The translations under genes were made by a program, and so were the position numbers. Shown here piece after piece: positions 6,126-34,348 of a stretch of DNA of 36,278 bases (positions within the stretch are counted from its first letter, which is position 1; each line of letters starts with the position of its first letter). The stretch is taken from IMG/VR virus record IMGVR_UViG_3300021596_000005, positions 1 through 36,278 of that record; one strand, 5' to 3'. This stretch comes from a virus. Below the pieces are notes generated by a model, which did no database searches, had not been told where the DNA came from, and worked only from the letters and a program-made list of their open reading frames with translations.

Positions 6126-6321
6126 TAAGCTTGATGTTGTTAACGCAGAACATGCGTTAGCTCGTATTGGTGGTGTAGGTACTGTAGACTATTACGTACT
6201 ATACTCACTAATCAGCCACATCAAGCGTTTGCAGAAGCTAGAGAAGGTTCCTATGTTATTTAAGGAACCTGGTCGCCAGGAGATTATTGATCTTTGGATT
6301 GAAGGGGATAAAAATACATGA
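6103..6321 (+). CDS. Small unknown protein, end of the ligase operon
   Basis: A 72-aa protein starting MDLQKEINKLDVVN; a further-upstream in-frame ATG at 6067 would overlap the ATP-grasp gene much more. It looks mostly helical with alternating charged residues and no known motif. The start overlaps the ATP-grasp gene by 23 bp, and the stop overlaps the next gene in an ATGA junction. The overlap on both sides supports that it is translated. Function unknown. Confidence 0.65.
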   Translation: MDLQKEINKLDVVNAEHALARIGGVGTVDYYVLYSLISHIKRLQKLEKVPMLFKEPGRQEIIDLWIEGDKNT

Positions 6322-6677
6322 GTAGTCGTTGTGTCGAAAAACTTCCACATCGAACTGACAAATGTAATTCAAGCAATGGCCTACAAGTGTTCCAGAAGAA
6401 TGATGGGACATACGATGGTTTTTGTTTTGCCTGTGGCACTCCTGTTCCTGATCCTTACCACGATAAACCAGCAGGTTATCGCCCAGTATTCAAAGTAAAG
6501 ACGCCTGAAGAAATTCAGGCTGAGATTGGAGAAATTCTCTCTGACTATCCGATTAAGGGATTCCCTGATCGTATGCTCAAGGAGGAGTATGTTCGATACT
6601 TTGATATTCGTGCAGGTGTATCAGAGACAGACGGAACTAGTTGTGTCTCTTCCTCATGGTTCAGGAGGTGCAGCTAA
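6318..6677 (+). pseudogene. Primase/helicase N-terminal fragment (zinc-binding domain)
   Basis: A 119-aa reading frame resembling the zinc domain of T7 gp4-type primases, with the NSSNGLQVF and GFCFACG stretches. Likely zinc ligands are C16, C36 and C39 plus H11 (or C5); the usual first CxxC is not intact. After about residue 105 (VSETDGTS) the frame no longer matches the family and ends about 15 residues later. The rest of the gene continues in the +1 frame. Compared with T7 gp4, the start of the TOPRIM domain with its catalytic Glu motif is not found in either frame, so this is a fragment of a gene with an out-of-frame internal loss. It overlaps the preceding stop in ATGA. Confidence 0.8.
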
Positions 6678-7728
6678 GGATATCTCGAAGAACCTTGCTG
6701 ACATTCGTCGTCACTTCAAGGAAATCATCCTTGTATTTGACAATGATGATCCTGGCAAGAAAGCTGTAGCAGATGTTCTAAAGATTCTTCCTGAGGCGCA
6801 GAGTGCCATTCTCCCCGAGAAGGATGCTAACGAGTGTATCAAGCAAGGGCGTAGTAAGCAGGCGTACAATGCTTGCCAATTCAACGCACAGAAGCCTAAG
6901 AATACTCGCCTAGTCTCTGGTAATGAGCTGCATGAGAAAGCTAAGGAACCTGCTAAGTTTGGGGTATCTTGGCCTTGGAAGCACATTACGGAAGCCACTC
7001 GTGGTATTCGTACAGGTGAGACCATCTATATCGGTGCAGGTCAGAAGCAAGGTAAGAGTGAGATTGTTAATACGTTAGCAGCTCACTTCATCAAAGAGTT
7101 TGGATGGAAGGTGTTCTTAGTTAAACCAGAGGAATCCAACAACAAGACATACAAGCTTGTTGCTGGCAAGCTCACTGGTAAATTCTTCCACGATCCTACT
7201 AAAGAGTTTGATGAGAAGGCGTATGACCAAGCAGGGGATGTCCTGAAAGACAAGCTGTTCATGCTTAATCTCTACCAGCACGTAGGTTGGGAGACGCTAA
7301 AGACAGATATTCGATCGGCAGCGATGGAAGGCTGTAAGGCTATCATCATTGATCCAATCACCAACTTAACCAACGGGATGGATGCAGCAAGTGCCAACGT
7401 TAAACTTCAAGAGATTGCTCAGGAGCTTTCGGCGATGGCCCTGGACTTGGATGTGGTCATCTTCATTTTCTGCCATCTACGTAACCCAGAGTCTGGGCCC
7501 CCGCACGAACGTGGTGGCGAGGTTCTCTCATCACAATTCGCTGGCAGCCGTGCTATGGCTCGTTCGTGTAATCTTATGCTCGGATTGGAGGGAAACCGTG
7601 ACCCTAATCTTCCACAAGAAGAACGGAACGTACGAACTCTTGTACTTCTAGAAGATCGGGAGTATGGAGAGGTAGGAAGATATAAGTTGTGGTGGGACAA
7701 GTCCACTGGTCTATTTAACGAACTTTAA
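6589..7728 (+). CDS. Replicative DNA helicase portion of a T7 gp4-like primase/helicase
   Basis: The open frame begins at a TTG at 6526, but a better start is ATG 6589, just after AAGGAGG (6579-6585), which would give 379 aa. Family similarity begins at VVSLPHGSGG, the second half of TOPRIM, with the metal-binding FDNDDPGKK. The RecA-like helicase core follows: Walker A GAGQKQGKSE (7033-7062), Walker B AIIIDPITN, the IFCHLRN motif and GSRAMARSCN near the arginine finger. It unwinds DNA at the phage fork. The missing first half of TOPRIM means this product alone should not prime. T7 also makes a helicase-only form (gp4B) from an internal start. Confidence 0.85.
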   Translation: MFDTLIFVQVYQRQTELVVSLPHGSGGAAKDISKNLADIRRHFKEIILVFDNDDPGKKAVADVLKILPEAQSAILPEKDANECIKQGRSKQAYNACQFNAQKPKNTRLVSGNELHEKAKEPAKFGVSWPWKHITEATRGIRTGETIYIGAGQKQGKSEIVNTLAAHFIKEFGWKVFLVKPEESNNKTYKLVAGKLTGKFFHDPTKEFDEKAYDQAGDVLKDKLFMLNLYQHVGWETLKTDIRSAAMEGCKAIIIDPITNLTNGMDAASANVKLQEIAQELSAMALDLDVVIFIFCHLRNPESGPPHERGGEVLSSQFAGSRAMARSCNLMLGLEGNRDPNLPQEERNVRTLVLLEDREYGEVGRYKLWWDKSTGLFNEL

Positions 7729-10981: not shown

Positions 10982-11185
10982 ATGGCATACTACAATTATA
11001 AAGTAGTTAGGGATATGATTCCTGACGATTTCTCTGAAAAATTCATTAAGGATTTTGAGGAGGAGAATGATACAGAGTACGACCATGACGCGAATTATGA
11101 TGGACATATGTGGTTGTTAACAGCAGCATATATCGATCATCTCCACTCACGAATTAACGAACTCAGTGCGACAACCACTAATTGA
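10982..11185 (+). CDS. Unknown small acidic protein
   Basis: A 67-aa protein starting MAYYNYKVVR one base after the SSB-like stop; an in-frame ATG at 10928 lies inside the SSB-like gene and is unlikely. It has an acidic middle (DFEEENDTEYDHD) and a helical C-terminus. Its last 20 bp overlap the GTG that opens the HNH/exonuclease region. No family recognised. Confidence 0.55.
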   Translation: MAYYNYKVVRDMIPDDFSEKFIKDFEEENDTEYDHDANYDGHMWLLTAAYIDHLHSRINELSATTTN

Positions 11186-11672
11186 CGCAGACGTTCTGCG
11201 TACCTTGTTAGTATACAATCCAGAGACTGGTGTATTTAGTAACAAGATTACTAGATCGAGTAATTCCAAAGAAGGGAGTGAGGCAGGCTCCCTTCAGAAT
11301 AATGGATATGTTTCAATCCATATTCATGGGAGGAAATATTTAGCACACAGGCTTGCATATCTCTATATGACTGGTCGTTGGCCAGAAGGGTTTATTGATC
11401 ATATCAACGGAATTAGGACGGATAATAGCTGGCTTAATTTAAGAGAGTGCAATAATTCTCAAAATATGCACAATCTACATAGGGAATATAAAAATGTATA
11501 CCCTAATGGCTCTGGTTACATGGTTAAAATCTCTAAAGATAATCAAGAGTTTTATTTGGGGACATTTAAAACTAAACAAGAAGCTAAAGATGTAGCTATT
11601 AAGGCCCGTAAACTTTATCACGGGAGTTTTGCTTATATTGGAAAGGAGGCCATCAATGCAAGCACTCATTGA
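11166..11672 (+). CDS. HNH homing endonuclease inserted at the 5' end of the exonuclease gene
   Basis: A 168-aa protein with NPETGVF, GRKYLAHRLAYLY and IDHINGIRTDNSWLNLRE, the signature of HNH_3 homing endonucleases, followed by an AP2-like DNA-binding segment (YMVKISKDNQEFYLGTFKTK). It starts at a GTG. Its first 12 codons read MRQPLIDADVLR, which look like the start of the neighbouring 5'-3' exonuclease rather than of an HNH protein. The nuclease therefore seems to have been inserted in frame after the exonuclease start. It ends inside a second exonuclease-like start at 11656. There is no room for an intron core, so this is not an intron-encoded protein. Confidence 0.85.
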   Translation: MRQPLIDADVLRTLLVYNPETGVFSNKITRSSNSKEGSEAGSLQNNGYVSIHIHGRKYLAHRLAYLYMTGRWPEGFIDHINGIRTDNSWLNLRECNNSQNMHNLHREYKNVYPNGSGYMVKISKDNQEFYLGTFKTKQEAKDVAIKARKLYHGSFAYIGKEAINASTH

Positions 11673-11699
11673 TGGGGACTAGTCGTCCTTAGGTATGAA

Positions 11700-12440
11700 G
11701 TGGGATACGCCGCTGAGGCTGGCTGGCAATCAGACGGTCTCCCTCCCTTTGATTATGTAGCTGAGCTATTGGAGATGCGGATTAACAACATCTGTGCTAT
11801 CACACAGGCCACCGCTCCCCCAATCCTCTATCTCACAGGAAATACTAACTTCCGTAACAACATTGCTACTCGTAAACCTTATAAGGAACGAGCCGGAGTT
11901 AAGCCATACCATTTCAAAAATCTAACAGCTTACATGAAGGCCGTATACGATGTACGAATGCAAGAAGGGCTCGAAGCCGATGACCTTATGGCTATCGAGC
12001 AAACAAAACGCCCTCTCGAAACCATCATTTGCACACGAGACAAGGACCTTAGACAGGTTCCCGGTTGGCACTATGGATGGGAGCTTGGTAACCAACCTCA
12101 ATTCGGCCCTCTGCTGGTGGAGTCTCCTGGACTCATTAGCCTCAGTGCAGATAGGAAAAGTATCAAAGGCTACGGAGACCTATTCTTCTACGCGCAATGT
12201 CTCACTGGAGACCCAGTAGATACAGTGCCAGGACTAGAAGATTGTGGGCCTGTTAAAGCCTTTGAAATCCTATTTGGTAGCACAGGTACACAGGACGCAT
12301 TTAATCGCGTTAGAGAGGCTTATAGGGCCTTCTACGGGGATTCTGGAGATAAGGAATTGCTAGAGCAAGGACGGCTTCTCTGGATGACTCGTTCCTTACA
12401 TGAAAATGGAGAACCAGTGCTTTGGCAGTTTCCAGAGTAA
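11700..12440 (+). CDS. 5'-3' exonuclease (T7 gp6/FEN-like), 5' end displaced
   Basis: Core motifs of the FEN-type fold are present: LEADDLMA, CTRDKDLRQVPGW and TGDPVDTVPGLEDCGPVKA. The enzyme would degrade host DNA or remove RNA primers. The frame begins at GTG 11700, but family-like sequence (VVLRYEV) continues upstream to a stop at 11670-11672. A start ATG at 11656, after AAGGAGG, encodes MQALIDGD in a frame that is one base off. Without that part the first catalytic Asp motif is lost. Either a one-base deletion near 11676-11682 inactivated the gene, or ribosomes shift by -1. The listed coordinates are the uninterrupted frame only. Confidence 0.85.
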   Translation: MGYAAEAGWQSDGLPPFDYVAELLEMRINNICAITQATAPPILYLTGNTNFRNNIATRKPYKERAGVKPYHFKNLTAYMKAVYDVRMQEGLEADDLMAIEQTKRPLETIICTRDKDLRQVPGWHYGWELGNQPQFGPLLVESPGLISLSADRKSIKGYGDLFFYAQCLTGDPVDTVPGLEDCGPVKAFEILFGSTGTQDAFNRVREAYRAFYGDSGDKELLEQGRLLWMTRSLHENGEPVLWQFPE

Positions 12441-15205: not shown

Positions 15206-16589
15206 TTGAACAAAGTCTAAGAAGCAAGCTAGTTACACGTAGGACTTATTCAAGACCCCTTGATGAGAAGGGTACAGTATTTGAGACATTTGAACAAACA
15301 GTTGATCGAGTAATCAATCATCAACGATGGTTATGGGCAAGAGCTGCTGGTATTGATGAGGATGATGTTGGAACCTATAATGAAAGAGAACTCCAAGAAC
15401 TCCGACAGCTCATGCTCGATAGAAAAGTTCTTATGTCAGGGCGTACCCTGTGGCTTGGTGGCACAGAGGTTGCAAAGCGACGAGAAGCTTCGCAATTTAA
15501 TTGTTCATTTACCAACTGTGAGACGGTATATGATGTTGTCGATGTGCTCTGGCTCCTCATGCAAGGCTGCGGAGTTGGTTTCCGACCTGTCGTTGGACAG
15601 CTCACTGGTTTCCAGAAGCCCATCGAATCCCTAGAGATTATTCGCTCTGCACGTACTGATAAAGACGGTGAACAACACAACACAGAAACCTACGACGCAG
15701 AAACAGGCGTGTGGACAATCCGAGTTGGTGACTCAGCAGAAGCCTGGGCTAAGTCCATCGGTAAGCTGGCCTCTCATAAGTTTCCCGCCCGTAAACTTGT
15801 ACTCGATTTCTCGCAGATTCGTCCAGCAGGGGAAAGACTAAAAGGATATGGATGGATTTGCTCAGGAGATTCTGGTCTCGCTACGGCGTATGAAGCCATC
15901 TTTAAAATCCTCAATCGTCGGGCTGGTAGTCTGCTGTCTCGCATTGATATTCTCGATCTTGTCAATTGGGTGGGTACTGTTCTATCTTCTCGGAGAAGCG
16001 CTGAAATCGCTCTATTCGAATACGGGGAAGACGAATGGGCAGAATTTGCGGTAGCTAAAAAGGAGTTTTGGAATGGCAACATCCAACGGGCACAATCTAA
16101 TAACAGCTTGGTATTTAGATTCAAGCCCTCACGAGAAGAGCTTAATGGAATTTTTAAGCTCATGGTCGAAAGCGGCGGGTCTGAACCTGGTTTCATCAAC
16201 GGTCAGTCTGCCCGCAAACGTGCCCCATGGTTCCAAGGAGTTAACCCTTGTGCTGAAATTCTCCTTGGCAACAAATCCTTCTGTAACCTGACTGAAGTAG
16301 ATGTTGCTAAATTTAAAGGTGATTCTGCCGGACTACGAAGAGCTGTGCATATTGCAGCTCGCGCCAATTATCGACAAACTTGCGTTAACCTCCTTGATGG
16401 AGTTTTGCAAGAAGCATGGCATCTCAATAACGAGTTCCTGCGACTTTGTGGAGTGGGCCTCACAGGTATTGTACAACGACCTGACCTCGGAGATTACGAT
16501 TACTCTGAATTGCAACGAACTGCAATTGCTGGAGCTTTCGGAATGGCTGACGAGCTTGGAACTCCTCGACCTAAGAATGTCACTACTGT
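15202..16589 (+). CDS. nrdJ: Adenosylcobalamin-dependent (class II, monomeric) ribonucleotide reductase, exon 1
   Basis: Residues 1-462 plus two bases of codon 463. The TTG start at 15202 follows GGAG by seven bases. The sequence follows the monomeric B12-dependent ribonucleoside triphosphate reductase of Lactobacillus: SGRTLWLGGT (79-88), C101 in FNCSF, C350 and E352 in NPCAEI, and C361 in SFCNL. C101, C350 and C361 match the redox and radical cysteines. It reduces NTPs to dNTPs. The frame runs only two codons past the splice site before a stop inside the intron. No separate small subunit is needed for this class. Confidence 0.93.
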
Positions 16590-16969
16590 TAATTAATGGC
16601 AGCCTTGTAGGGTAACCTACATTGAATAACTGCGTGAATTGCTGGGAAGCTAAAGCTATAAGCTATGCCAATCAGCAGCCAAGCCTGTTTCAGTCTAAAA
16701 CCTAAAGGAACTCTGGTAATAGCTAACAGGAAGGTTCAGAGACTATCCCGAGAGGGAGTACGCATCAAGTGATGCGGAAGCGCGCAGCTTCCTATAAGGA
16801 AGATGATATAGTCCGACCTCCTAAGAAATTAGGAGATGTTTATGAGATTGTATGAGATCCGTAACAGCATAAATAATGCTGTATACGTTGGAATAACAAG
16901 AATTAGTAAAACTCATTATTATCGTCTCAGAAAACTGGCTCAGAATAACGAACTGAGTTGAACACTGTG
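16590..16969 (+). ncRNA. Group I intron in the ribonucleotide reductase gene
   Basis: 380 nt. The core is recognisable from TTCAGAGACTATCC (about 16735-16748) and its partner GATATAGTCC (about 16805-16814), the P7/P3 strands of phage group I introns. Three hairpins lie between or after: CCC-GAGA-GGG, GCATC/GATGC and GGAAGC/GCTTCC. Exon 1 ends with U at 16589. CTGU of the exon can pair with GCAG of the intron (P1, with the expected U-G at the splice site), and the intron ends in G at 16969. Joining 16589 to 16970 restores the conserved TTVKPSGT in frame. Splice positions are inferred but fit protein and P1. Confidence 0.9.
16842..16961 (+). pseudogene. GIY-YIG homing endonuclease remnant inside the intron
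   Basis: A 39-aa frame preceded by a good AGGAG site (16831-16835). It reads MRLYEIRNSINNAVYVGITR and continues about 19 residues, matching only the N-terminal strand pair of a GIY-YIG nuclease (normally GxY...YxG), with LYE and YVG in those places. Catalytic Arg, Glu and the DNA-binding part are missing. It looks like the remains of the intron's former homing enzyme, making this intron probably immobile by itself. Confidence 0.65.
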
Positions 16970-31781: not shown

Positions 31782-32515
31782 TATCGTTTTCTTCCATAGT
31801 CAGGGTATTTAACACCCCCTTGGGCTCTCCACGCTTTACGTGAAAGCCATCGTTGTTGTCTTCCTGCTTTCTGTTCTGCCTTCTGATTAACCATTTGTTT
31901 CTGGTTAAAGAATGCAGTGCTCTTAGCTTCTTCTAAGAGGGCAGGGAAAGCTTCTACAGGAAGATCAGGAATAAATGTATCTTCCTTTACCCAGACAGGC
32001 TGGATATATGCTAAGCACTGTGTCTTGCTTGCTTTAAGTGTATCATCTACAGAGCTGTTGTATGAATCGCAAACAATGTAATTGTCATCAAAGGTAGTCC
32101 AGTACTCTGGGTCTTTATCGTTGACAATCAGAAGGGTTGATCCACCAAAATCGTAAACAGTTTCTACGTTGGTATTGGTAAGTGTTCTGTGTGATAGCAG
32201 CTCTAGGAATTCATCAGGATGACGAAACTTTAGAGAAACATACTTACCCTTATCGTTTAGATATCTTGCATCTACAAGCTCTTTAACGTTTACAGGGAGC
32301 TTTAGGTAGTTAGGACGAGTGAGGTCGCTAGGAGAGTCTAGCTGAATTAGCTTCTTTAGATGAGGCCAGTTTCTATTTCCAATCATCTCAAAGTAGCAAG
32401 TACGAACGACCTGGGCTACTTGAAGAGATTCTGTTGTGTCATTGATACTGTTAACCTCATCAGAATCCATGTCAGAAAGGATATCTTGAACAATATCTAG
32501 TAATGACATTTTCAT
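31781..32515 (-). CDS. Tail tubular protein A (T7 gp11-like gatekeeper)
   Basis: A 244-aa protein starting MKMSLLDIVQDILSDM at 32515, seven bases after GGAG; an upstream in-frame ATG at 32554 lies before that ribosome site and is less likely. The helical N-terminus with VVRTCYFEMIGNRNWPHLKK is characteristic of gatekeeper proteins that form the ring between portal and nozzle. The C-terminus is basic (RKAWRAQGG, YPDYGRKR). Complete. Confidence 0.85.
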   Translation of the reverse strand: MKMSLLDIVQDILSDMDSDEVNSINDTTESLQVAQVVRTCYFEMIGNRNWPHLKKLIQLDSPSDLTRPNYLKLPVNVKELVDARYLNDKGKYVSLKFRHPDEFLELLSHRTLTNTNVETVYDFGGSTLLIVNDKDPEYWTTFDDNYIVCDSYNSSVDDTLKASKTQCLAYIQPVWVKEDTFIPDLPVEAFPALLEEAKSTAFFNQKQMVNQKAEQKAGRQQRWLSRKAWRAQGGVKYPDYGRKR

Positions 32516-32516
32516 T

Positions 32517-33013
32517 TTATGACTCCTTATATGTACGCTGAAGTACAAATCCAATATCGTAAATATTTACGTTAGTGTCTGGAGTTACAAATAAAGAAAG
32601 CTGTGTGTTATTAATGAAGCTTCCTAGATACAACGCAGTGGTAAATGAAACGTAGTTTACTGCACCACCACCTTTAATGAATTGAGTGCTAGCGGAGACA
32701 ACAGTAGGGCCGTTATTGGTTTCTAATTCACTATTGATAATGTAAGGAGTTCCTGCCGCAGCAGCAGCAGTACATTTAAATTGTATCCGTGCAATATAAA
32801 CTGCATTCAAATCATTAATTACAAATCGACTATTAGCTGTATCCCACAAAGCACCTAAACGGTATCTGAATATGAAAAATCACTTTCATATAACTTTCGC
32901 CATGTTCCTGCATTAGGACCTGTGGCGACATAAACCTGGGAAGCTGTAGCTGAACTCAATCCCTTCGGATCGTGTCGTTCAGAGTCTGGAATATCTTTAT
33001 GTAAGATTGACAT
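32517..33013 (-). pseudogene. Frameshifted tail or head-associated protein (two pieces)
   Basis: An N-terminal piece begins at ATG 33013 (MSILHKDIPDSERHDPKG, 52 aa, stop 32855-32857). The C-terminal piece is open from about 32888 down to 32517 in the -1 frame, with RLGALWDTANSRFVINDL. The two overlap around a run of five T (minus strand; 32875-32879). Adding one T there joins them into a single protein of about 165 aa. Both pieces read like one family. So the gene is either mutated by one base in a homopolymer, mis-sequenced, or translated with a -1 slip. Function unknown. Confidence 0.75.
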
Positions 33014-33032
33014 ATTTGTTCCACAAATAAGA

Positions 33033-33063
33033 AATGGGGATCACCATTATAGTGACCCCCATT
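33033..33063 (-). terminator. Hairpin after the capsid and decoration genes
   Basis: A long inverted repeat, AATGGGG-x-TCAC with GTGA-x-CCCCATT, seven-base loop. On the minus strand it is followed by a modest T-rich stretch (TTTCTTATTTG). It lies just after the 160-aa gene stop, so it could reduce transcription from the highly expressed capsid block into the tail genes. Confidence 0.7.
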
Positions 33064-33567: not shown

Positions 33568-34008
33568 TTATGAGTTAACAGCGGAAGTAATTACGATACC
33601 TAGCGTGTCAACACGTTGTGTACCAAAACCCCAGCGTGAGGAAGTTACGAACTCATCACGACGTAGATCCTTGTTGCGCTCGCCTTCAACTCGGGGCATA
33701 CGACGCCATGCAGCCATAATTGGCTTGGTGTTGTCGTCAGCTACGCACATGAATACGTTAGCAACGCCGTTAGCAACAGTAGTAGTACCATCACTGAATG
33801 AACCAGTCTGTAGACGGTTTGAAGTGATGATGTTCCAGCCATATAGATTCATCATGAATTGATGGTCACGATCCCAGCCACTAGCAAGAATCTTCTCGCC
33901 GAAGGGGGTAACGTCACGACCAATTGAGATGAGCTTATCTAGTGTAGCACCAACAACAGGGTCAACGATAGCAACACGGCCAGCCATAGGAACGTTCTTG
34001 GATAGCAC
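33568..34008 (-). pseudogene. Major capsid protein, C-terminal part (out of frame)
   Basis: 146 codons with NVPMAGRVAIVDPVVGATL, NGVANVFMCVADDNTKP and RVEGERNKDLRRDEFVTSSR, highly typical of the capsid protein type in several podovirus-like phages. It is in the +1 frame relative to the N-terminal half. Nominal start is GTG 34008, which is not a believable natural start. As I recall the family, about 50 residues between the two halves are absent. Confidence 0.8.
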
Positions 34009-34348
34009 GAGTTGATTCGCTTGAGCGAGCAGCCATCAGGGCTTCAACTTGAGCACCGTCTTCACGGAGTTCGTCAGTTACATACCAAGCATCACCAACA
34101 TAGTCAGTAATGGTTAGCAATACTTCACCTGATTCGATAGGGCTATAGTCGAACGGAACTTCTTCAGCGCCGTCTTGGATAGTTACTGAACCGATGGTTT
34201 TAATGTGCAGTGTGTTGCCTGAACCGAAATCAGAAACGTTGCGATAGAAAGCGCCGGGTAGAAGACCATCTTCTAGGTTACGCAGAATGAACGCAGAATA
34301 CTGTTCGGCTTCAATAAACGCAGTGCTGTTTGCACGGTTTTGTGCCAT
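33962..34348 (-). pseudogene. Major capsid protein, N-terminal part (out of frame)
   Basis: 128 codons starting MAQNRANSTAFIEAEQYSAF after AAGGAC. Motifs NVSDFGSGNTLHIKTIGS and DYVGDAWYVTDELREDGAQ are those of a major capsid protein. The match ends at STRAIQE; the remaining ten or so residues before the stop are frame junk, and the C-terminal half follows in the other frame. The capsid would not assemble without a join, so this is an assembly problem, a defect or recoding. Confidence 0.8.

Follow-up and report, generated by a model that had tools for sequence, protein, structure and literature searches.

The Split Major Capsid Gene of a Metagenomic Phage Record Is Very Probably an Assembly Artefact

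Introduction

How does a phage genome come to carry its major capsid gene in two pieces that lie in different reading frames, with the middle of the protein encoded by neither? The question is raised by the window analysed here, a stretch of 36,278 nucleotides comprising bases 1–36278 of a 40,126-nt IMG/VR record (IMGVR_UViG_3300021596_000005, labelled G000). Among the annotated phages closest to the window are Salinivibrio phage CW02, Citrobacter phage CVT22, and Pseudomonas phage PA11. A sequence-only reading of the window had described a capsid gene split between two frames and had named, without ranking them, three possible causes: loss of a segment during assembly, a defective genome, or expression of the gene in an unknown way. 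The comparisons reported here strongly support the first of these, disfavour the second, and effectively exclude the third.

Results

The two open reading frames at the locus, 34348..33962 and 34008..33568, both on the minus strand, differ in frame according to the ORF listing, and each matches the major head protein family phrog_267, at profile positions 33–144 and 202–328 of 410, respectively. Two contigs from different samples allow the break to be placed precisely: G001 (IMGVR_UViG_3300008116_000843; 17,098 bases) and G002 (IMGVR_UViG_3300032050_005256; 4,059 bases), which share 99.69% and 99.47% identity with the record in the 2.28 kb adjoining the capsid junction. G001 encodes a whole 313-residue capsid protein in one frame across the junction (locus L083), and G002 encodes residues 1–270 in one frame across it before the contig ends. 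Relative to the intact G001 protein, the 5′ part of the window gene (33995..34348, minus strand) encodes residues 1–118 (34348–33995) with 100% amino acid identity, beyond which its frame stays open, out of register, as far as the stop at 33962. The 3′ part (33568..33996, minus strand) encodes residues 172–313 (33996–33571) and the stop codon in the other frame, with 99% identity. What is absent is residues 119–171, that is, 53 amino acids or 161 nt of G001 and G002, at a junction that the alignments place at 33994..33997 on the minus strand with an ambiguity of 2 nt. Because 161 is not a multiple of 3, the loss shifts the reading frame of everything beyond residue 118. The earlier description is thus borne out in coordinates, strand, motifs, and size by the reading frames, the phrog_267 matches, and the G001 alignment: the N-terminal half does end at STRAIQE, the C-terminal half does resume at NVPMAGRVAIVDP, and the "about 50 residues" thought to be missing are the 53 counted here.

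Judged by its sequence matches, the window gene is a predicted Zobellviridae-type major capsid protein of putative HK97 fold, with both halves matching the family and the middle absent; CW02 is classified in Zobellviridae. A profile search with the capsid protein retrieved the cyanophage A4 capsid (E 0.00025), a Pfam search with the two halves and the intact protein gave no match, and a literature search found no paper on the CW02 capsid. An AlphaFold model of the intact G001 protein, of low overall confidence (pLDDT 55.7, but ~65–85 across most of residues 119–171), has tailed-phage capsid proteins as its best PDB matches. In this low-confidence model, the missing stretch forms the end of a long helix (residues 98–131), a strand, and a further helix (residues 158–170).

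To place the window gene among its relatives, 157 related capsid loci were considered, fetched with two queries such that some contigs are counted twice. The single continuous reading frame that the window gene lacks is present in full in 148 of these loci; of the remaining nine, eight run into the end of their contig, and in one (L051) the match starts only at residue 18. At none of the 157 loci was an internal deletion or an indel of such size found at this site, nor was an intron or a programmed frameshift seen among them, and the 20-mer spanning the capsid junction occurs in no IMG/VR contig besides the record itself. Over 76 distinct proteins, residues 119–171 are aligned without a gap, and mean identity to G001 is 73% in the missing stretch compared to 89% before and 82% after it. 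Among 39 aligned proteins, the many invariant residues of the stretch include E121, F124, Q132, N138, F143, H145, R146, K165, F168, D169, and K170. Alignment to related capsid proteins, which the sequence-only reading had put forward as a check, finds the stretch in G001 and G002 and its deletion in none of the related loci. A capsid protein without residues 119–171 is unlikely to assemble.

The capsid gene is not the only broken gene in the record. Just downstream of the capsid region, a structural-region gene (32517..33040, minus strand), whose product in G001 has 217 amino acids, lacks 130 nt at 32861/32862 relative to G001, which breaks its frame. A primase-helicase gene (6318..7728, plus strand) likewise lies in two frames, with ~251 nt absent near 6635–6640 relative to its relatives. 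The missing primase stretch is present in all relatives compared, and the lost protein segment includes VTEGE, the Glu motif of the TOPRIM domain. An exact 26-mer search returned no near-identical contig over this junction, so that the placement of its ends rests on relatives that are at most ~84% identical in protein. The sequence-only reading had drawn a parallel between the capsid and primase genes, and the loss of a piece between two halves is indeed common to both. The shared +1 shift, which had been part of that parallel, is incidental and carries no information, since 161 and 251 happen to have the same remainder, 2, when divided by 3 (for 130 it is 1).

Applied to the whole record, the same test for broken genes returned these three deletions and one intron; elsewhere, long open reading frames are intact, and no further broken orthologue was found. 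A control on five relatives (G001, G004, G005, G007, and G008) returned no comparable deletion, its only hits being one reciprocal pair in G004 and G005, which lies on the other strand from the capsid gene and involves no loss of comparable length. The intron is of group I (Rfam RF00028, 96.9 bits, 16580–16835) and splits a ribonucleotide reductase gene over positions 16590–16962; at its end it carries a short remnant of a GIY-YIG-like ORF (E 0.014, under the Pfam cut-off). Unlike the deletions, it is an insertion that is absent from G004, G005, G007, and G008. Two further ORFs, at 440–715 and 11166–11672, resemble HNH homing endonucleases by eye, and the latter sits in ~0.8 kb where G004 has only ~0.1 kb. 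In G001 itself (L174), 72 nt that are present at 31914–31985 of the window and in other relatives are absent in frame at ~11699–11703, which may be natural variation or a comparable fault in the contig.

The record is also visibly interrupted. Directly past the last base of the window, a run of 11 Ns (36279–36289 of the record) interrupts a coding region and takes the place of 50 nt seen in G001 and G002, which identifies the record as a scaffold with a gap. It is incomplete as well: ~11 kb of G004, lying between the parts that match the two ends of the record, has no counterpart there. From 35442 to the end of the window and on to record position ~37500, ~2 kb shows no mismatch to G001, nor to G002 up to its end, and beyond this block the record is only 92–96% identical to G001 in stretches. 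Such a block suggests recent recombination or a segment held in common.

The character of the junctions was then compared with expectation for random breaks. If each join is treated as a deletion and nothing more, exact homology amounts to 2 nt at the capsid junction and 0 nt at the 130-nt junction. At random breakpoints in G001, homology is 0 in 56% of cases, 1 in 28%, and 2 in 11%, with 0–2 nt accounting for 94%; homology at both testable junctions is at chance level. Deletion between direct repeats was rejected on these values. The hexamer AACGTT occurs at both capsid flanks and would fit a join by repeat or overlap only if one A was also lost. A chimera of two strains was likewise considered for the capsid junction and set aside: identity to G001 is ~98% across it and drops only further downstream, and because there is no step at the junction itself, nothing indicates that the flanks derive from two strains. 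Rearrangement within the record was rejected as well, as searches of all 40,126 nt for the missing 161 nt of the capsid gene and the protein stretch they encode, for the 130-nt piece, and for the missing primase protein stretch gave chance matches only.

Discussion

The data are best explained by a phage whose capsid gene is whole and a break that arose as an artefact of assembly or scaffolding, a reading that we consider very likely. The record would have been built as a scaffold from shorter metagenome contigs. Where coverage or graph resolution failed, the ends of neighbouring contigs may have been joined with the intervening sequence left out, once with Ns (36279–36289) and three times without, at the capsid gene (161 nt), the structural-region gene (130 nt), and the primase gene (~251 nt). 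Read pairs bridging the contig ends, followed by gluing in the assembler or scaffolder, could have produced such joins, and joining ends over a gap in coverage would leave homology as low as that seen here. Two hallmarks of such a fault are present: the missing capsid piece is found in near-identical independent contigs, and three deletions and one run of Ns are concentrated in a single record, with nothing comparable in five relatives. Counting against it, the three joins within the window are free of the Ns that mark the gap at 36279, an exact overlap of at least 6 nt, as expected of an overlap-based join, is lacking at both comparable junctions, and identity to G001 shows no step at the capsid junction that would betray the joining of two strains.

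The clean joins without Ns could be taken to mean that the deletions are real and that the record represents a defective phage genome, to which intact siblings in the same cells supply capsid protein and primase; near-identical intact phages do exist as possible helpers. We regard this as unlikely. It requires that genes needed by the phage were hit by three or more separate frame-breaking deletions, all in one gapped and incomplete scaffold, whose remainder keeps long intact reading frames with no other broken orthologue apart from the intron-bearing one, and the capsid junction 20-mer has been deposited in no second IMG/VR contig. More improbable still is the specific form in which a genome deleted in the capsid, primase, and structural-region genes occurs naturally and is complemented by near-identical siblings in the manner of a defective interfering particle. 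A genuine but small deletion, or a strain variant, that is confined to the capsid gene, unconnected with the other lesions, and of a kind that the capsid can tolerate would find some precedent in the in-frame indels that occur among these phages, such as the 72 nt absent from G001. It is nevertheless very improbable, given a length that puts everything after residue 118 out of frame and the absence of an indel of such size from this position in all 157 related loci.

That the two parts are made into a capsid by frameshifting, ribosome hopping, or splicing, or function as separate chains, is hardly credible. Both parts are near-perfect in coding identity to the intact protein, but the whole record lacks the 53 intervening codons, which puts them beyond the reach of any frameshift, hop, or splice. 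These codons include family-invariant residues as well as the end of the long modelled helix (residues 98–131) and the helix at residues 158–170, and the split is not conserved, relatives using one ORF. The absence of the codons, together with the continuous ORF of the relatives, effectively excludes expression by an unknown route. The split capsid gene is almost certainly a fault of assembly and not biology.

More generally, the locus is a caution that internal deletions in essential genes may go unmarked in public viral scaffolds and be presented by gene callers as split genes, and that comparison with near-identical contigs from other samples exposes them. Were the deletions real, the record would describe an unusual helper-dependent phage.

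A literature search found no account of such a fault in IMG/VR records. A precedent for the proposed mechanism among the joins made in short-read assembly is provided by rnaSPAdes, which can glue the tips of contigs that do not overlap if read pairs link them (PMC6736328). Its gap closing likewise joins two contig ends, if need be on read-pair support alone, without the unsequenced middle (PMC6736328). It is a precedent only, the mechanism behind the record being deduced from the result. Defective, helper-dependent phage genomes resemble the record in that essential genes are inactivated and intact relatives exist; in contrast to them, the record contains an explicit scaffold gap, and its deletions are known from the assembled record alone. 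The closest biological counterpart is Salinivibrio phage CW02, a Zobellviridae-type podophage whose gp48 (phrog_267) is 76% identical in amino acid sequence to the 3′ part of the window gene and whose gene order (portal, hypothetical, scaffold, capsid, putative tail fibre) is the ORF order of the window. The genes of CW02-type relatives are continuous, whereas the copy in the window lacks residues 119–171 and loses its frame beyond residue 118.
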